Notes under the pieces: generated by a model | What the model was told of the DNA's origin: nothing | Databases searched by the model: none | What the model saw: only the letters and a program-made list of their open reading frames with translations | Shown: piece after piece, positions 799-21,196 of the stretch | Numbering within the stretch: position 1 is the stretch's first letter | How the letters are laid out: every line of letters begins with the position of its first letter | Program-made: the position numbers and the translations under genes | Source of the DNA: a virus | DNA length: 22,125 nucleotides | Virus record (IMG/VR): IMGVR_UViG_3300037246_002397 | Location: 1-22,125 of that record | Reading direction: 5' to 3' (one strand)

Positions 799-826
799 AA
801 ATAATCAATGAACATAACTAACTTCA

Positions 827-1000
827 TACTTACCGTATTGCTAAGGTTGCCGATATGGGACAGTAATCAAGTACGAGACGGGACTTCCATTCTCAGCCAA
901 AAGCCAGAAGGAAGACTCTCTAAGAATAACCGGAACCGAGCTATTGTGGGTAGCTTATGGACCGCAACCTTTAGAGGTCACAGAGTCGTAGCCTGATAAG
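827..1000 (+). ncRNA. candidate structured non-coding RNA
   Basis: The 292-base gap between genes holds a block clearly richer in G+C than its surroundings (77 of 160 bases at 841-1000, counted by hand). Helices seen: 841-850 with 964-974 (10 bp, one bulged T); 884-893 with 906-914 (9 bp, one bulged A, 12-base loop); 938-943 with 951-956 (5 bp plus a G-U, 7-base loop); and ACTCT at 915-919 with AGAGT at 982-986, which would form a pseudoknot across the first helix. A 62-codon frame at 808-996 crosses it but has no ribosome binding site. I recognise no Rfam family. It could be a free RNA or a 5' leader of the gene at 1091. Strand is inferred from the flanking genes. Confidence 0.5.
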
Positions 1001-1052
1001 GAACGATAAATTAAAGAGAATAAAAAATTCAAGTTTCACACTTAAAATCACT

Positions 1053-1075
1053 GAGGCTGGCTGATCACTAGCCTC
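1053..1075 (+). terminator. hairpin before 1091, possible terminator of the RNA
   Basis: GAGGCT (1053-1058) pairs perfectly with AGCCTC (1070-1075), with an inner G-T wobble and a 9-base loop. It is followed by only two T residues, so termination would be weak. It sits 5 bases before the AGGAGAC ribosome binding site of the next gene, so it could also shape access to that site. Confidence 0.35.
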
Positions 1076-1090
1076 TTAAAAGGAGACAAA

Positions 1091-1375
1091 ATGGAAGTAG
1101 CATTAGGCGAATCAGGATTAAATAAAACTTTCCAGAAAGAATTCCCGAAAGAAACAAAATGTGTCCATTGTTCAGGAAATGCGAGAATCGGATTTGTTGC
1201 TCATGAAGTTGATGACAAAGGTAAAGATTCAGATGCAGATTTACCGCCAGCATATGTTTGCCAAGTAAATGAGCAAGGCAAGGATGATAAATTGTGGCTT
1301 CATGATTTATGCTCAGTTGCTGTTTATTTCTGTGAAAAATGCCTGAATCCAACTGCTTTGTATAATCAAGGATAA
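1091..1375 (+). CDS. small zinc-ribbon-like protein, 94 aa
   Basis: No named family recognised. A CVHC pair near residue 24 and a CEKC pair near residue 80, plus two further Cys (in YVC and LCS) and nearby His, suggest one zinc ribbon with a long acidic Gly/Asp/Lys-rich insertion between the pairs. The ATG at 1091 follows AGGAGAC (1081-1087) with a 3-base gap. It lies directly downstream of the candidate RNA and its hairpin and ends 8 bases before the next gene. Confidence 0.75.
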   Translation: MEVALGESGLNKTFQKEFPKETKCVHCSGNARIGFVAHEVDDKGKDSDADLPPAYVCQVNEQGKDDKLWLHDLCSVAVYFCEKCLNPTALYNQG

Positions 1376-1957: not shown

Positions 1958-2638
1958 ATGAAAACATACTACCAAACACTAGAAGTAGATGAAGACGCTA
2001 CTGAAGATGAAATCAAAACAGCTTGGAAAAAACAATCAATGAAATATCACCCAGACAGAGAACAAAATCCAGAGAAAAAAGTGGAGGCCGAAAGCAAACA
2101 GCAAGAAATAAATGAAGCCTATGCAGTGCTAAGTGATCCCGAAAAAAGAAAGCAATATGATGAATACGGAACGGTTGAGGGAAATCAAATAACTCCTTCT
2201 GGTATCATTAAAAATGCTTTTAAAGTTCTTTTAGGGACAGATTTCTCATTAGATAGAATGTTTATTGCTGTTCATAGAGGTACAATAGCAGTGATCGAGA
2301 GCTACGAAGCGTCCCTTGATGAAGCCAATCGCATGATCTCTGAATATGACAAGAAAATAAAACAATTGAATAAAGTTATAAAAGTAAAGGCGCAAGGAAA
2401 AGGTCAAAGTATTCTCAGGGAAGCAGTGAATGAAGAAATCGAAGTATATGAATTCGAAAAAAGAAGAATCAATATTAAAAAAATAAAACATACTATCGAT
2501 ATTCACAAGCAAGCATTTGATCAGCTTAAAGAGCATTATCCAAGGGAAAAAGAGGAAGAGAAGGAAGAATCCTTTTCAGATTTCAATCGTTTAATACAAA
2601 AAAATATTTATCAACATTTTTCAAGGAGAGAATGGTAA
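1958..2638 (+). CDS. DnaJ-like J-domain protein, 226 aa
   Basis: Residues 1-70 form a complete J domain: YYQTLEVDEDATEDEIK helix I/II, the invariant HPD at 31-33, then NEAYAVLSDPEKRKQYDEYG. Such domains stimulate ATP hydrolysis by Hsp70 (DnaK). The Gly/Phe region and zinc-finger domain of full DnaJ are absent. The remaining ~150 residues are charged and helical (Lys/Glu-rich, likely coiled coil), so this is a class III type J-protein that probably directs host DnaK to a phage-specific client. The stop overlaps the start of the next gene as TAATG, which suggests translational coupling to the membrane protein. Confidence 0.88.
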   Translation: MKTYYQTLEVDEDATEDEIKTAWKKQSMKYHPDREQNPEKKVEAESKQQEINEAYAVLSDPEKRKQYDEYGTVEGNQITPSGIIKNAFKVLLGTDFSLDRMFIAVHRGTIAVIESYEASLDEANRMISEYDKKIKQLNKVIKVKAQGKGQSILREAVNEEIEVYEFEKRRINIKKIKHTIDIHKQAFDQLKEHYPREKEEEKEESFSDFNRLIQKNIYQHFSRREW

Positions 2639-3183
2639 TGAACTTCAAAGCACACTTAGCAACGGCTACAGTATTCTCAATCGGAATAGGATACGCTACT
2701 ATCCATTATAACCTAGTAACAATTAGCAACCTAAAAACGGTAATTCCTGCCGTAGTATTAGGTGGACTATGGCCGGATACAGACACAAAATCAATTCCAA
2801 CAAAACTATATTGTCTATTCTTATTAATAGCATCTATCTATTGGTATGCTCAAGGAACGACAGGATATACTTTACTTTTTCTAATACCTTTTCTTGCTGC
2901 TCAAATAGACAAGCACCGAGGCTGGACACATTCGCTATATTTACCACCAATTCTATTCTTTTCAGCCTTAATTGTTAATTATCTTGATCGTCATTTCATA
3001 TCTATGGGATACGGTGATTTTGTGGAAACTGAATCATTTATTATTCATTGGGGGGAAACAAAGGATTTTTTACTGAAGTATTCATTACAGATTCAGAGTC
3101 TGTCAGTCGGAATACTTTTTCATGATATTGTTGATATTATAAGCACTTTTTTGAAGCGGAAAGGAATTATTAAAAGCAGTTAA
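2638..3183 (+). CDS. YdjM/DUF457-like membrane-bound metal-dependent hydrolase, 181 aa
   Basis: The family signature is visible in order: H6 after the start, GLWPDTDTKS (PDTD at 46-49), HRGWTHS (93-99) and GILFHDIVDII (H162, D163, D166), with hydrophobic segments between, about four membrane spans. The family (LexA-binding inner-membrane-associated hydrolase, E. coli YdjM type) is predicted to be an integral-membrane metal hydrolase with unknown substrate. Start 2638 is preferred over an in-frame ATG at 2632 because the AAGGAG (2623-2628) is 9 bases away rather than 3, and it overlaps the J-protein stop by one base. Confidence 0.85.
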   Translation: MNFKAHLATATVFSIGIGYATIHYNLVTISNLKTVIPAVVLGGLWPDTDTKSIPTKLYCLFLLIASIYWYAQGTTGYTLLFLIPFLAAQIDKHRGWTHSLYLPPILFFSALIVNYLDRHFISMGYGDFVETESFIIHWGETKDFLLKYSLQIQSLSVGILFHDIVDIISTFLKRKGIIKSS

Positions 3184-5145: not shown

Positions 5146-5291
5146 TGAAAAAAGAAAAAGTCCCTCGTAAAATGAAAAAGCGTTGGAAAAAGAAGATAAT
5201 CGGTAATCTCCAAAGAACAAATAATCTACCAGAAAAATACAAACTCTGGTGGAACAAGTATTACAGATGGACACTTCAACCGAAAGGATGA
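5145..5291 (+). CDS. small very basic protein, 48 aa
   Basis: The start ATG overlaps the previous stop (TAATG). The first 19 residues are almost half Lys/Arg, followed by an aromatic tail with LWWNKYYRW. Such composition suits nucleic-acid or membrane-surface binding, but it is too short to classify. It ends 3 bases before the next gene, so the tight spacing supports it being real. Confidence 0.6.
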   Translation: MKKEKVPRKMKKRWKKKIIGNLQRTNNLPEKYKLWWNKYYRWTLQPKG

Positions 5292-5294
5292 GAA

Positions 5295-5474
5295 ATGAAA
5301 GACCGAAACGGAACTACCATAAAAATAGGCGATACGGTAGACTGTAACAGCCTAGAATTTACCATTAAATCTTTCCATGAACTAGGTAACGGAAACGACC
5401 TAGCTTGTGGAGAATACGGTGATATAAATGTAAATCTACTTGAGAAGGTAGAGACTAAAGGAGAGAAAGCATGA
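5295..5474 (+). CDS. small beta-rich phage protein, 59 aa
   Basis: It begins MKDRNGTTIKIGDTVDC, the strand-turn-strand opening of small SH3-like or beta-barrel phage proteins, and continues with further short strands (EFTIKSF, DLACGEYGDINVNLLEKVE). Function unknown. Its ATG follows the stop of the basic peptide by 3 bases with a GGATGAGA context, and its own stop overlaps the next start (ATGA). Confidence 0.65.
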   Translation: MKDRNGTTIKIGDTVDCNSLEFTIKSFHELGNGNDLACGEYGDINVNLLEKVETKGEKA

Positions 5475-5700: not shown

Positions 5701-5925
5701 ATGGCATCAACAAGCCTAAACGATAAATTTATTTGGCTTCAACTTGAATTAAAAGAGTTGAAAAACGATAAACATGCTGAAGAACTATCTTTCCATTACC
5801 ATCAGCTGTCTGAATCGATAGAGCGCAAAATGAGTGATTTAATCGGGCAATGCACAACGGATATTTCTAATTTTAGATCATTAGTTAAGGAATTAAAAGA
5901 TAAACAAAATCAAAAGGATACATAA
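5701..5925 (+). CDS. small helical protein, 74 aa (MAST-type start)
   Basis: Entirely helical and charged with heptad-like Leu/Ile spacing (WLQLELKELKND; ESIERKMSDLI), likely a coiled coil. Its first ten bases after the start, ATGGCATCAA, are shared with the next two genes, so the three starts may descend from a duplication. AAGGAG lies 10 bases upstream. The stop is fused to the next ATG as TAATG. Confidence 0.72.
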   Translation: MASTSLNDKFIWLQLELKELKNDKHAEELSFHYHQLSESIERKMSDLIGQCTTDISNFRSLVKELKDKQNQKDT

Positions 5926-6275
5926 TGGCATCAACAGAAATACAATCAGAACGAATCATAAAAGCATGTGATGAGTATCTAAAAAAGACAGTAAGCGAAA
6001 TAAAAGAAGATCAAGAATACTGCCAAGAAAACAAACTTCAGAAACGTGAATTTCTATCTGACTCTGGCAAAAAAGATTTTTCTTATGTTAAGAGGTTGAA
6101 AATGTTAGCAGAAGAATCATTGCATGAAAGAGAATGGTTGATGAAGAGAATGTGGCCAGAAGGATATAAAAAAGATGATTATTTCCCTATTATGGTCAAT
6201 TTAAATTTATACGATCACCAATTAATCGGAGAATATCTACCAAAACACGATAACCCACATAAAATAGAGGCATAA
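5925..6275 (+). CDS. hypothetical protein, 116 aa, tandem paralog A
   Basis: Unknown function. MASTEIQSERIIKACDEYLKK at the start and VNLNLYDHQLIGEYL near the end align with the next gene (MASIEIQADKVITSCEKYLS ... ITITHNDYELIGEFL), so these are paralogs with a divergent, charged middle. Start and stop are both TAATG junctions. The LIGE codons include CGGAGA, in the same place where the paralog carries the next gene's ribosome binding site. Confidence 0.78.
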   Translation: MASTEIQSERIIKACDEYLKKTVSEIKEDQEYCQENKLQKREFLSDSGKKDFSYVKRLKMLAEESLHEREWLMKRMWPEGYKKDDYFPIMVNLNLYDHQLIGEYLPKHDNPHKIEA

Positions 6276-6544
6276 TGGCATCAATAGAGATTCAAGCAGA
6301 TAAGGTGATTACTAGTTGTGAAAAATACCTAAGCGTAATAAGAAAACACGCCTTTTATGGAAATGATGTTAAAGCTAAGAAGAAATACAATATTGAGGTT
6401 GAAAATACTTCTACCGTTGAGAAAATCAAAAACCTTGTTGAGTATGCAAATGAAAATTCCGAACAAGAAGGGTTTAGTTCCTATTTATCCCCCACAATAA
6501 CAATAACCCACAACGACTATGAACTAATAGGAGAGTTTTTATGA
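6275..6544 (+). CDS. hypothetical protein, 89 aa, tandem paralog B
   Basis: Paralog of the preceding gene (see its entry), with a shorter middle. The helix at 40-60 (VEKIKNLVEYANENSE) matches VKRLKMLAEESLHERE in paralog A. The last residues ELIGEFL are encoded by a stretch that contains AGGAGAG, serving as the ribosome binding site for the next gene, whose ATG overlaps this stop (ATGA). Confidence 0.78.
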   Translation: MASIEIQADKVITSCEKYLSVIRKHAFYGNDVKAKKKYNIEVENTSTVEKIKNLVEYANENSEQEGFSSYLSPTITITHNDYELIGEFL

Positions 6545-6916: not shown

Positions 6917-7147
6917 GTGAAAACAGAATACAAATACATCCAATTAAATTCATATGAAATAGGACCACCATGGAATAGGGTGAAAATTTGGCAAGTATTT
7001 AATAATAAGGACGAGTATATCTGCCAAATTGAATGGGATAATATTAGTGAGTACGTGTTATCAGAAGATAAAGAATCAATAAATAAAGGATGTTTAGAAG
7101 ATATCAATGATTTTATAACTCAGTTAATGGAGGAGAGGAAGGGATGA
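6917..7147 (+). CDS. hypothetical protein, 76 aa, GTG start
   Basis: Beta-rich first half with aromatic strands (YKYIQLNSYEI, VKIWQVFNNKDEYICQIEW) and a helical acidic end. Not recognised. The GTG at 6917 follows AAGGAG (6904-6909) by 7 bases. The stop overlaps the terminase-like gene start (ATGA), and the purine-rich GAGGAGAGGAAGG inside its last codons supplies that gene's ribosome binding site. Confidence 0.7.
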   Translation: MKTEYKYIQLNSYEIGPPWNRVKIWQVFNNKDEYICQIEWDNISEYVLSEDKESINKGCLEDINDFITQLMEERKG

Positions 7148-7938
7148 AACATCGAAATTGGCATCATGATTTAGCTGAAAATTATTACAAAAGAGCTTTA
7201 AAAGGTGAAATAAAAAAGCTTATGATATTTCAGCCACCAAGAACATCAAAAACAACTATGATGGTGAATGCAATATTAGACGCTCATAACATAAATGATC
7301 AACTTAATATTTCATCATACTATCAAACAAGAGCAGTTGCACTCCAAAAAGCAAGAATTGTAAAAAATGATCTTTCCGAAAAAGGGTTATTAACTCCTGA
7401 CGATCATAGTTTAACATATTTTGGTAGTGGGAAAAGCACTTACTATTCTATGTCAGTCTGTGGGCCAGCAGTACCGCAAACTGATATATGCTTTATTGAT
7501 GACACTGTAAAAAATATAGAAGAGTCTAAAAGCGAAGTGATTCAATCAAAGCTATATGACTGGTATGAAGTTCCTATCCAATGTTCATTATCAGAAGATC
7601 CTGTAATCGTCATCATATGCTCACGATGGGGCAAGAAAGACCTTCCGGGCAGGATATTGAAGAAAGAAGGTATAATGGAATATAATGGCAATCCTTCAAG
7701 ACATTGTGCTTTTTGGGAATGCATGGACGACAAGAAAGGAGAATGGACAGTTTTAAATCTTTTCTCAGAAATAGATGAATCAAATATAGCATGGAAGCAC
7801 CCAGATGACCCAAGAGGAATCGGCGATGCTCTATGGCCTGATAAATTTCCAATGTCACACCTTCAGCAATTCAAACATAATAAAAGTAATTGGTTGTCAC
7901 TGTGGCAAGGAACACCATCATCAGAATATACATTTTGA
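7144..7938 (+). CDS. stand-alone terminase-ATPase-like protein, paralog of terL N-terminus, 264 aa
   Basis: This protein aligns along its length with residues ~55-335 of the large terminase subunit at 8982: NWHHDL/NWHHRL, LMIFQPPRTSKTT/LMVYAPPRHMKSE (P-loop, 31-38 here), ICFIDD/LAGIDD (Walker B, 116-120), IICSRW/IVNTRW (157-162), GEWTVLNL/GEWTILCL and WKHPDDPRGIGDALWP/WKHPIDPREPGEALWP. It stops just where the large subunit continues into its nuclease domain. The central region (50-110) differs most. It may be an accessory motor regulator, an ATPase for another DNA task, or a decaying duplicate; the intact frame and strong ribosome binding site favour use. Confidence 0.8.
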   Translation: MKHRNWHHDLAENYYKRALKGEIKKLMIFQPPRTSKTTMMVNAILDAHNINDQLNISSYYQTRAVALQKARIVKNDLSEKGLLTPDDHSLTYFGSGKSTYYSMSVCGPAVPQTDICFIDDTVKNIEESKSEVIQSKLYDWYEVPIQCSLSEDPVIVIICSRWGKKDLPGRILKKEGIMEYNGNPSRHCAFWECMDDKKGEWTVLNLFSEIDESNIAWKHPDDPRGIGDALWPDKFPMSHLQQFKHNKSNWLSLWQGTPSSEYTF

Positions 7939-7972: not shown

Positions 7973-8049
7973 ATCAATTACGTAATCAACTGAATACAAC
8001 AGGCATATAGAAAAGCCTTAATTAAGATAATAACAATTACGTAATTGAT
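7973..8049. repeat. paired palindromic ATTACGTAAT repeats upstream of terS
   Basis: CAATTACGTAAT occurs at 7975-7986 and again at 8034-8045, 59 bases apart. The second copy is a perfect 14-bp palindrome (CAATTACGTAATTG, 8034-8047), and the first, read on the other strand, shares ATTACGTAATTGAT with it. The downstream copy touches the terS start codon at 8050, where no good ribosome binding site is seen. Possible roles are an operator controlling terS or the packaging recognition site bound by the small subunit. Confidence 0.5.
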
Positions 8050-8991
8050 ATGGCAGGAAGACCATGCAAGGTGTGCAAACTAAAAAAGACACATCCAGAA
8101 GCATACCGATTAATCAGTACCGAAATAAAGAAGGAAAAAGGGAAAGCTAAGATTAAACAACTACTAACAACCCTCAAAGAAAGATTTGGATTAAAAGTCA
8201 ATGGAGTTAACATATTCCGACACAAAGAACACCTCGCTAAAAACTCAGGAAAAGTCGTAAAACCAAAGAAGAAAAAAGCCACCGAAATGGAAGTTTACGC
8301 TGAAAATGGAGAGCTTCTATACACAAACATCCAAGAAATAATCGATGATTTAGACGATAAAGAGAAGCTTTTTTGCGAAGCTTATGTGAATACTCATAAT
8401 CATAATGGGACAAGTGCATATCTTGAAATATATCAAACACCTACGTATGGTTCAGCTGCAACTAAAGCCAGCCTTCTATTGAAAAAGGTAAATATTCAAT
8501 TATATATATCACACCTTATGAATGAATTATCCAAAGGGTTACGGGTATCTTCATCATTCGTAATCACAAGTTTAATGACAAATCTATCCAGATGTATGCA
8601 AGCAGAACCAGTTATGGGCAGGGATGGAGAGCCTATTGGTATTTATAATTATAATGCCAATGCTGCAAATAAGGCAATTGAACTGATCGGAAAACATATT
8701 GGAATGTTTGAAAAAGGAGACAATCAAGGAAATCAAAAACAAATATATGATAATCTTATCCAAAAAATGGCGAATAACGAAGTATCACCTGTTATGGCCT
8801 TATTCGAATTAGCAAAAGAAAAGCTTCCTTTCCAAGACATGGCTAAAATTCTTCTCAATAAAGCCGACTTAACCCAAATAACAGAAGGTCCGAAAAGAGA
8901 AGGGGACGATTTAAAGAAAGCATCTAACGATGAACTTGAAAACCGGTTGAGAATTATTTCCGATAAAAAGGAAAAGTTAAAATGCAGTTAG
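8050..8991 (+). CDS. terS: terminase small subunit, 313 aa
   Basis: It recognises the packaging site and regulates the large subunit. The N-terminus (GRPCKVC, C6/C9, then RHKEHL at 57-62) is a helix-turn-helix type DNA-binding module often fused to phage terminases. The core (100-165), LDDKEKLFCEAYV...GTSAYLEIYQTPTYGSAATKASLLLKKVNIQLYI, is typical of the Terminase_2/XtmA family. Residues 165-313 are a long helical and basic extension, giving a protein larger than the usual 150-200 aa. No clear ribosome binding site precedes the ATG; a palindrome occupies that space. The stop lies 10 bases inside terL. Confidence 0.88.
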   Translation: MAGRPCKVCKLKKTHPEAYRLISTEIKKEKGKAKIKQLLTTLKERFGLKVNGVNIFRHKEHLAKNSGKVVKPKKKKATEMEVYAENGELLYTNIQEIIDDLDDKEKLFCEAYVNTHNHNGTSAYLEIYQTPTYGSAATKASLLLKKVNIQLYISHLMNELSKGLRVSSSFVITSLMTNLSRCMQAEPVMGRDGEPIGIYNYNANAANKAIELIGKHIGMFEKGDNQGNQKQIYDNLIQKMANNEVSPVMALFELAKEKLPFQDMAKILLNKADLTQITEGPKREGDDLKKASNDELENRLRIISDKKEKLKCS

Positions 8992-10865
8992 CCTCTACTG
9001 TAGCAGAAACCTCTGAATTAGCACTGCTTGAGATAGAAGAACAGAGACTAAAGCTTGAGCTTGAAGAAAGAGATATACTAAGAGAGCTTGGCGGTAGAAC
9101 TACTTTCGGATACACAAAGTATACTTTCAGAGCATATAAGCGGGAAAACTGGCACCATAGATTAATAGCTGACTATCTTCAGATGGCAATTGAAAAGAAG
9201 ATAACCAGGCTAATGGTGTATGCGCCGCCTAGGCACATGAAAAGTGAAAATCTTGAAAGGGCTTTCTCTTATTCAATGGGAAAGAATCCAGATGATAAGA
9301 TTATCATTTGCGGCCATACTGCACCAAAAGCAAGAAAGATATCCAATCATATAAAATCCAATGTAACTGATCCAAGGCATCTTGATATATTTCCTGATTT
9401 TCCAGGTATTAATGGGGAAAATACGCAACATTTTTGGGAATTAGGGAATGGTTGGCGTGGGTCATTGTTAGCTGCTGGCCGGTCAGGTCCAATCACTGGT
9501 GAGGGATTTAATTTAGCTGGCATAGATGATTTAGTAAAGGATAGAGAGCAAGCAGAAAGTCCAACCTTCCATGAAAAAAACTACGATTGGTATTCATCTA
9601 CTTTTCTTTCCAGGCAGGACGAAGAAGATTCAGTAATTGTTATTGTAAATACAAGATGGAATCCAAAGGATATTTGTGGTCGTATTTTAGCAATTGATGG
9701 AATCAAAGAATATAACGGCCAATCACCAACTAAAGAAATTACCGGTGAAGATGGCGAACCTCAAACAATTACTTGCCCAGAATACAATGGTGATCCTAAT
9801 GGAGAATGGACTATTCTTTGTTTACCCGCGGAGATGGATCATGAATTTTATGAATGGAAACATCCCATCGACCCAAGAGAACCCGGCGAAGCTCTTTGGC
9901 CTGAACGATTCAGCACTAAACATTTAAAACAGTTCAAGAAAAATAAACATTCATGGAACTCTGAATGGCAACAACGACCGCGGCCAAAAGGTGGAAATGT
10001 TATTGACAGGTCATGGTTTAAGATCTGTCGTGACTTTCCAAGAAATGGAAAATTAGTTCGATTTTGGGACATGGCGTCTACCCCAAAAGAGGAAGCCAAA
10101 AAGAACGATCCTGATTTTACAGCAGGAGTTTTGGCAACATATGTTGATGGCAATATTTACATTATCGATATTGTTGCAACCAGGAAATCACCGAAAGCTC
10201 GTTGGGCATTAATGAAGCAGACTGCCGAGATGGATTATTTAAAGTATGGCGGCAAGGTACTGCAAGTATGGGAAGAGGAAGGCGGTAGTTCAGGAAAGGA
10301 TGCATCTGAGGTTTTAAAAGATGATGAAGTATTTGGAGAATATTTAAGGGCACCATTCCCTGTTAAAAAGAATAAACAATTTTATATCGACTATCTAGCT
10401 AATAAAGCTGAATCAGGAAATTTATATTGTGTAAATCCATCTGCAGGACTTGGAAAAGATGAAATAAATTGGCTGATCGAGAAATGCGATGGTAACACTT
10501 TCTTTGATGAAGCTGAAATTTGGCCAAGTAAATCAGCTCATGATGATAGACTTGATGCAGCTGCAAAAGCGTGTTTCATTCTAATCAAGAGAATTATAAA
10601 ATCATTCTTTGGCGAAGGTTCCGGAACTGAAGAAGAATATAAACCCCAACCCCACAACCCCGAAACAGAAAAAAATACAACCTTCCAATCCCTCGAAAAA
10701 GAAATTCTCACCAAAAGGAAAATAGACATCTCTAAAATCACTGACCTTGACCTTACTTTAACTATTTTAGAAGAAATATCAAGAAAATATGCAGAGAAGG
10801 GAGACTCCGTAACCACTCTATTAGTAATGGATGAGATAGAGCGAATAGAAGATAGTAGAAAATAA
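8982..10865 (+). CDS. terL: terminase large subunit, 627 aa
   Basis: ATP-driven DNA packaging motor and headful or cohesive-end nuclease. ATPase domain: P-loop APPRHMKSE (81-89, with Met where Gly is usual), Walker B LAGIDD (178-183), coupling motif IVNTRW (221-226). RNase H-like nuclease domain: VRFWDMAST with D363, acidic WEEEGG (430-435), and HDDRLDAAAKA (520-530) with D521/D522. This matches the large-terminase C-terminal type (TIGR01630/Terminase_6C). The start overlaps terS by 10 bases. A ~90-residue charged tail follows the nuclease domain. The portal gene normally next to terL is not in the downstream part of this window. Confidence 0.95.
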   Translation: MQLASTVAETSELALLEIEEQRLKLELEERDILRELGGRTTFGYTKYTFRAYKRENWHHRLIADYLQMAIEKKITRLMVYAPPRHMKSENLERAFSYSMGKNPDDKIIICGHTAPKARKISNHIKSNVTDPRHLDIFPDFPGINGENTQHFWELGNGWRGSLLAAGRSGPITGEGFNLAGIDDLVKDREQAESPTFHEKNYDWYSSTFLSRQDEEDSVIVIVNTRWNPKDICGRILAIDGIKEYNGQSPTKEITGEDGEPQTITCPEYNGDPNGEWTILCLPAEMDHEFYEWKHPIDPREPGEALWPERFSTKHLKQFKKNKHSWNSEWQQRPRPKGGNVIDRSWFKICRDFPRNGKLVRFWDMASTPKEEAKKNDPDFTAGVLATYVDGNIYIIDIVATRKSPKARWALMKQTAEMDYLKYGGKVLQVWEEEGGSSGKDASEVLKDDEVFGEYLRAPFPVKKNKQFYIDYLANKAESGNLYCVNPSAGLGKDEINWLIEKCDGNTFFDEAEIWPSKSAHDDRLDAAAKACFILIKRIIKSFFGEGSGTEEEYKPQPHNPETEKNTTFQSLEKEILTKRKIDISKITDLDLTLTILEEISRKYAEKGDSVTTLLVMDEIERIEDSRK

Positions 10866-10888
10866 TTTAAAAATAAGTTATTATTTAC

Positions 10889-10917
10889 TTGACCGATTTG
10901 GACAGTTCAATTAAAGT
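10889..10917 (+). promoter_or_regulatory. sigma70-like promoter after terL
   Basis: TTGACC (10889-10894) and TAAAGT (10912-10917, 4 of 6 matches to TATAAT) are separated by exactly 17 bases. Just upstream, AAATAA (10871-10876) and TTATTT (10881-10886) form a weak AT-only hairpin that could end the terL transcript. Downstream are a CTTAATTAAG palindrome (10918-10927) and the AGATCAGAATTAAAC repeat. The site would drive the small-gene series starting at 10965. Confidence 0.5.
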
Positions 10918-10927
10918 CTTAATTAAG

Positions 10928-10942
10928 AGATCAGAATTAAAC
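10928..10942 (+). repeat. AGATCAGAATTAAAC leader repeat, copy 1
   Basis: A 15-base exact copy recurs at 11374-11388. Both copies lie in leaders, 23 and 27 bases before the start codons of the genes at 10965 and 11415. A shared regulatory or RNA-processing site is plausible; duplication of the leader is the simplest origin. Confidence 0.5.
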
Positions 10943-10964
10943 TTTAACTAAAACGGAGAATCTA

Positions 10965-11219: not shown

Positions 11220-11225
11220 CAACCA

Positions 11226-11239
11226 GCCTCGAAAGGGGC
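11226..11239 (+). other. GNRA-capped RNA hairpin
   Basis: GCCTC (11226-11230), GAAA loop, GGGGC (11235-11239): five pairs including one T-G, closed by a classic GNRA tetraloop, 32 bases before the next small gene. It has no T-tract, so it is not a standard terminator; it could protect an mRNA end or mark a processing point. Confidence 0.35.
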
Positions 11240-11270
11240 ATTAATATAATACTTATCACTGAGAAAGAAA

Positions 11271-11372
11271 ATGTCAAAAAGAGATATAATCGCAATATCA
11301 ATAGCAGCAAACGTAATTAGTTTTGGATTAGGAATTATAGTTTGTCTGGAATTTGCCAGTCAATGTATTTAA
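11271..11372 (+). CDS. single-span membrane peptide, 33 aa
   Basis: MSKRDIIAISIAANVISFG continues into a hydrophobic LGIIVCLEF stretch, so about 22 residues form one transmembrane helix with a basic N-terminus. A purine-rich GAGAAAGAAA precedes the ATG but no strong AGGAG. The stop lies 1 base before the second AGATCAGAATTAAAC copy. It is plausible as a phage membrane peptide, but its shortness leaves doubt. Confidence 0.5.
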   Translation: MSKRDIIAISIAANVISFGLGIIVCLEFASQCI

Positions 11373-11373
11373 C

Positions 11374-11388
11374 AGATCAGAATTAAAC
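11374..11388 (+). repeat. AGATCAGAATTAAAC leader repeat, copy 2
   Basis: Exact 15-base match to 10928-10942, here in the leader of the gene at 11415. Confidence 0.5.
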
Positions 11389-11414
11389 CATACACACTTA
11401 ATTGGGGAATTAAG

Positions 11415-16188: not shown

Positions 16189-16215
16189 ACAAAACCATAC
16201 TATAAGGTATTTATT

Positions 16216-16377
16216 ATGGATCAATTCTTTATAATGATTTTTATTTTTACGATGGGAATCTGAGTAGGTGGATATTTTGAATCACATCTCCATTTATTTA
16301 AAAGAAAAATATGTTTTGAAAGGCCAGAGCCAAAAGATAAACCGCCAACTGAGAGACTAAATGGCCATAACATTTAA
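16216..16377 (+). pseudogene. small membrane protein ORF interrupted by in-frame TGA
   Basis: From the ATG at 16216 the frame reads MDQFFIMIFIFTMGI, then TGA at 16261-16263, then VGGYFESHLHLFKRKIC and continues to a TAA at 16375-16377. A single base change (TGG to TGA) would restore a 53-residue one-span membrane protein with a Trp at the break, followed by a basic/Pro-rich tail. TGA is a normal stop in neighbouring genes, so this is a nonsense mutation, a readthrough site, or a 15-residue peptide with an untranslated remainder. A weak AAGGT precedes the ATG. Confidence 0.45.
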
Positions 16378-16501
16378 TTTAAATATCCTATGCCTACTTT
16401 TTGGACATAAACTGGAAATGGATGGGTATAATTATGGTATCACTCATTACTGTTCAAGAAAAGGATGTAATTATAAAAAACGAAATCAGGAAACAAAATG
16501 A
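16361..16501 (+). CDS. DUF1660-like small zinc protein, 46 aa
   Basis: CLLFGHKLE ... THYCSRKGCNYKK fits the small prophage protein family DUF1660 (C-x-x-x-x-G-H-K ... C-x-x-C or C-x4-C), thought to bind zinc. It overlaps the end of the interrupted ORF in another frame, and its own stop overlaps the next start (ATGA). Ribosome binding site is weak (GAGAG). Confidence 0.6.
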   Translation: MAITFNLNILCLLFGHKLEMDGYNYGITHYCSRKGCNYKKRNQETK

Positions 16502-21107: not shown

Positions 21108-21138
21108 AATGTCTCCTTTAATTAATATTAATTAACAC

Positions 21139-21171
21139 TTGATTTAAATATCATAGGTGTATAATATACAC
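21139..21171 (+). promoter_or_regulatory. promoter with operator for the RHH repressor
   Basis: A perfect -10 box TATAAT (21160-21165) lies inside the inverted repeat GTGTAT-AAT-ATACAC (21157-21171, six-base arms). A -35-like TTGATT (21139-21144) is 15 bases away, or ACTTGA (21137-21142) 17 bases away. A protein bound to the repeat would cover the -10 box. The downstream gene codes for a ribbon-helix-helix protein, the class that binds such short palindromes, so autorepression is the natural reading. Confidence 0.6.
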
Positions 21172-21196
21172 GTAAACAATAAAACACAAGGAAATA

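Follow-up and report, generated by a model that had tools for sequence, protein, structure and literature searches.

Genomic context and composition of the intergenic block

The DNA analyzed here (the window) is a virus record of 22,125 bases with a mean G+C of 0.339, and many of its genes are small and without known families. Within it, a 292-nt intergenic block separates a gene at 364-798, which encodes a Lar-like zinc-ribbon protein (Pfam PF14354) and flanks the block on its 5' side, from a second gene on its 3' side, at 1091-1375 (Table 1). The first-pass annotation had singled out this block as markedly richer in G+C than its surroundings, and its hand count of 77 G+C in the 160 positions 841-1000 was exact on recount. 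The G+C maximum of the contig falls here as well, since the 160-nt window with the highest value (0.4875) begins at 846. The spacer as a whole was also richer than the remaining intergenic blocks 60 nt or longer, whose G+C was 0.306. This peak coincides with the predicted folded domain, which is bordered by A+T-rich flanks on both sides. The block had also been described as the only long one between genes, which was incorrect: the block at 16189-16497 is longer (309 nt), and another at 11220-11414 measures 195 nt.

Table 1. Coordinates of the intergenic block, its predicted helices and the downstream gene.
Feature	Position	Strand	Remarks
Non-coding intergenic block	799-1090	+	No coding path beats shuffles in any frame; G+C 0.40
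Predicted folded domain	841-1007	+ (deduced from flanking genes)	Prediction; energy z only -0.9; coincides with G+C peak
P1 (841-850 with 964-974, one bulged base)	841-974	+	Closes three-arm junction; inner pairs 845-850 probability 0.85-0.95
Arm I, weak	851-875	+	Pair probability 0.60-0.76
Arm II (contains 884-893:906-914)	876-921	+	Pair probability 0.82-0.99
Arm III (contains 938-943:951-956)	932-963	+	Core pairs 939-944 probability 0.95-0.99
3' hairpin	985-1007	+	Competitor of crossing helix; pair probability 0.89-0.95
Crossing helix (914-919:982-987)	914-987	+	Complementary, not favoured
Hairpin (1053-1060:1068-1075)	1053-1075	+	From predicted fold; just 5' of gene 1091 ribosome-binding site; no T run after
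Alternative long-range helix (883-894 with GAG 1083-1085 and AATGGAAGT 1090-1098)	883-1098	+	Covers ribosome-binding site and start codon of gene 1091
Gene for 94-aa cysteine-rich protein	1091-1375	+	Likely regulated gene; coding z 6.1; AGGAGA upstream

Coding tests on the block

Coding potential was assessed by a codon-usage measure learned from the called genes of this phage, and on this measure the 48 called genes, whose own scores are somewhat flattered by the training, had z values of +1.1 to +11.6 against shuffles. The 62-codon frame at 808-996 lacked both marks of a protein-coding gene in this phage, having neither phage-like codon usage (z -0.5) nor a ribosome-binding site (no Shine-Dalgarno site). 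A second frame, 845-988, is open over 48 codons and reached z 1.69, a value between those of out-of-frame windows (mean -0.31) and in-frame windows (mean 3.0). Neither frame gave a credible match to a phage protein or protein family where tested. When frameshifts were tolerated, the best coding path through the whole spacer scored 7.2 bits (p 0.23 against shuffles), lower than every one of the 53 sense blocks tested (minimum 14.5), and a frameshifted pseudogene thus received no support from this test. Because the codon-usage, coding-path and protein-match tests were all negative, the block is non-coding as judged by the codon usage of the phage itself; a remnant of a foreign gene with a different codon usage could still lie within it.

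Predicted fold of the block

Three helices had been drawn in the first-pass annotation, corresponding to P1 and to the helices contained in Arms II and III. All three were present in the predicted minimum-energy fold, with most of their pairs above a probability of 0.8; the lower values belonged to the A-T pairs 843-844:971-972 (0.54 and 0.27) and to the pair 938:956 (0.66). P1 includes an exact 8-nt inverted repeat (843-850/964-971). The minimum-energy fold agreed with the centroid fold and the ensemble diversity was low, with only 7-9% of shuffles equally low, so that in the folding model the domain appears fairly well defined. The folding energy, on the other hand, was within chance when compared to shuffles, with z values of -0.89 (836-1010), -1.46 (841-974) and -1.80 (799-1090). 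Judged against composition, the quality of the fold amounts to an energy z of -0.9 to -1.8 and an ensemble diversity at the 7-8.5% level, and high G+C by itself accounts for most of the stability of the fold.

A crossing helix between 915-919 and 982-986 had been proposed in addition, which would make the domain a pseudoknot. The two strands are indeed complementary, and extended to 914-919:982-987 they form 6 pairs worth -6.6 kcal/mol. However, freeing the arms for this helix costs about 10 kcal/mol, because 916-919 sits in Arm II and 985-987 in the 3' hairpin, and the crossing helix was therefore energetically unfavourable together with the other helices. A search for crossing helices, which was heuristic and used no full pseudoknot energy model, ranked a different pseudoknot first, 944-949 with 978-983. 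This alternative was itself no better than shuffles, as totals as good as the block's best were obtained in 27.5% of them. Based on these results, the proposed pseudoknot is unlikely. The earlier reading of the block as a structured RNA is thus retained in part: what stands is a G+C-rich block that is non-coding, has no match in Rfam and is predicted to fold into a compact, branched form, whereas the pseudoknot is disfavoured and the energy is not below that of shuffles.

Predicted pairing between the block and the start of gene 1091-1375

The block has the position of a cis-acting leader, being non-coding, on the same strand as gene 1091-1375 and directly upstream of it. This gene has its own ribosome-binding site, and its product belongs to no Pfam or PHROG family. 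We found that the strand 883-894 (ACTTCCATTCTC), which sits inside Arm II, could alternatively form the long-range helix of Table 1, in which 883-891 is a perfect 9-nt complement of 1090-1098. When the start codon was included in the folding, the probability of this helix was about 0.44-0.89, and the two states (Arm II versus start-site pairing) were 0.9-2.2 kcal/mol apart in the model. A complement run this long occurred in 1.6% of shuffled leaders, whereas by duplex energy the pairing was matched in 10-16% of shuffles. Upstream complements stronger than that of gene 1091 exist for some other genes of this phage. The start-site complementarity is at most marginally above chance, and it is weaker as evidence because it was noticed after the fact. 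A scan for promoter-like or terminator-like sites around the block returned none, and scans of this kind miss many real sites as well as phage promoters.

Search for relatives

The claim that the block belongs to no known family was borne out by a search of Rfam release 15, in which it reached the threshold of no family. Under gathering and permissive thresholds alike there was no credible match, and the three sub-threshold hits were chance matches to unrelated families. A tRNA/tmRNA scan found none. When the block was compared by blastn with phage, plasmid and E. coli records, only chance matches of 26-30 nt were returned; likewise, an exact 20-mer and 16-mers of the block gave only chance matches in virus contigs (IMG/VR), and a two-ended gapped pattern of P1 gave nothing beyond chance in the same contigs. 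When the block's frames were back-translated and compared with virus contigs and bacterial genomes, no match was confirmed, and the neighbouring proteins (genes 364, 1091 and 1384) had no relatives in the collections queried.

Relatives of the phage were also sought through its terminase genes (8050-8991 and 8982-10865). The nearest, L002, was 55% identical over residues 42-533; the others were distant only, and bacterial genomes yielded none. L002 lacks the block and, apart from one weak match (to gene 2632-3183), has no neighbourhood in common with the window. The pattern scans depend on exact seeds and may therefore have passed over diverged homologs, and the failure to find homologs of the block is absence of evidence.

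Other features of the contig

Folding signals in the contig were strongest outside the block. In a contig scan, other 160-nt windows folded far more extremely than the block (z -3 to -4.7, the extreme being -4.65); the top signals, with z from -3.5 to -4.7, came from 10801-10960 and 5201-5440, where gene ends and intergenic blocks are found. The arms of an exact 14-nt inverted repeat lie at 7973-7986 and 8036-8049 (ATCAATTACGTAAT / ATTACGTAATTGAT; fold z -3.1), the second of them directly next to the start codon, at 8050, of the gene for the small terminase subunit. This repeat gives a stronger structural signal than block 799-1090 and could serve as an operator or as a hairpin that hides the start. 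The small subunit gene is flanked by two terminase-large-subunit-like genes, 7144-7938 and 8982-10865, which are 35% identical over 281 columns; the former holds only the N-terminal (ATPase-like) part of a large subunit.

Two further repeats lie upstream of genes. The sequence GATCAGAATTAAAC occurs exactly at 10929-10942 and 11375-11388, upstream of genes 10965 and 11415, and is possibly a shared promoter or operator. A non-coding 45-nt repeat (16368-16412 and 21133-21177, 71% alike) precedes gene 16498 and gene 21197, the second of which encodes an Arc-like regulator, and is a possible promoter or operator. The adjoining genes 5925-6275 and 6275-6544 appear to be a tandem duplication, their small protein products being related (29% identical), and gene 1958-2638 of the phage carries a DnaJ domain at its N-terminus (Pfam E 1.2e-22).

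Interpretation of the block

The block is real as a G+C-rich, non-coding region without known relatives, and its identity as a functional RNA is plausible rather than demonstrated. We tentatively read it as the untranslated leader of gene 1091-1375, with an orphan structured RNA domain at 841-1007 that would act in cis on translation of the gene, and we consider this the most likely single reading, a good possibility somewhat short of probable. A structured leader is favoured because a non-coding G+C peak, agreeing folds of low diversity, a downstream gene led by AGGAGA and the complement 883-891:1090-1098 occur together. It is weakened because the energy is at the level of shuffles, the duplex energy is insignificant, and neither homologs nor a promoter-like or terminator-like site were found. 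We infer transcription of the + strand, formation of the fold and regulation by the block.

A switch between two states would be one way for such a leader to work. In the first state, 883-894 would be paired within Arm II, leaving the ribosome-binding site free; in the second, the same strand would pair with 1083-1085 and 1090-1098 and the start would be hidden. This detail is much less certain than a structured leader as such, and we regard it as improbable in this specific form. Doubtful to a similar degree is the wider proposal of an undescribed class of phage RNA, about 170 nt long and with a stem of 10 pairs closing its junction, which would switch translation of the cysteine-rich gene when triggered by a host signal or by a phage protein.

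A substantial possibility is that the block is a spacer without any RNA role, consisting of newly acquired DNA of higher G+C or of a foreign gene remnant, in which the helices arose by chance at 48% G+C. The folding energy and the best pseudoknot, both within the shuffled controls, are consistent with such a spacer, as are the failure to find homologs and the intermediate codon-usage score of frame 845-988. However, neither frame has a family match, the coding-path score does not rise above shuffles, and the ensemble diversity is below that of most shuffles; an idle spacer of this length would moreover be uncommon in compact phage genomes.

Given its composition, its predicted fold and its A+T-rich flanks, the compact domain (about 841-1007) could instead be a small phage RNA that stands by itself and works in trans, on the host or on other messages of the phage, either by base-pairing or by binding protein. 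We consider this unlikely, as promoter-like and terminator-like sites around the domain were not found, even if the scans overlook many genuine ones. Very improbable is a small insertion element (MITE-like) with 841-850 and 964-974 as its terminal inverted repeats: these are near-perfect and enclose 113 nt, and the composition differs from that of the surroundings, but there is no target-site duplication beside the repeats (TTG at 838-840, AGG at 975-977) and no second copy in the window, and the paired ends match nothing in virus contigs beyond chance.

Comparison with known systems

Translational leaders that hide a ribosome-binding site include riboswitches, RNA thermometers and those of autoregulated phage genes. 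The structured leader proposed here resembles them in that 883-894 has two possible partners, one inside the leader and the other at the ribosome-binding site and start codon, and differs in that its complementarity is not clearly above chance. Group I introns are among the large, pseudoknotted RNAs with many helices. The block is likewise predicted to have several helices and a pseudoknot had been proposed for it; in contrast to these RNAs, it has no Rfam match, its pseudoknot is disfavoured, and both flanking genes read complete.

Selecting G+C-rich intergenic regions of A+T-rich genomes is an established way to begin the discovery of structured RNAs (GC-IGR, PMC6429828). The block is similar to such candidates, being a long intergenic region with high G+C for its genome and located upstream of a gene, whereas in that method homologs and a consensus model follow and for the block no homologs were found. 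Phages are also known to carry the structured leader motifs manA and wcaG, which were proposed to regulate genes (PMC2864571). The domain in the block is proposed to be a regulatory phage RNA of the same general kind, but unlike these motifs it matches no Rfam release 15 family above threshold. A G+C island with helices that can be drawn and without a homolog is a lead, not proof. If real, the block would mean one more RNA element in a phage lineage of which very few relatives have been sequenced, and would provide an example of RNA-based control over a small phage gene.
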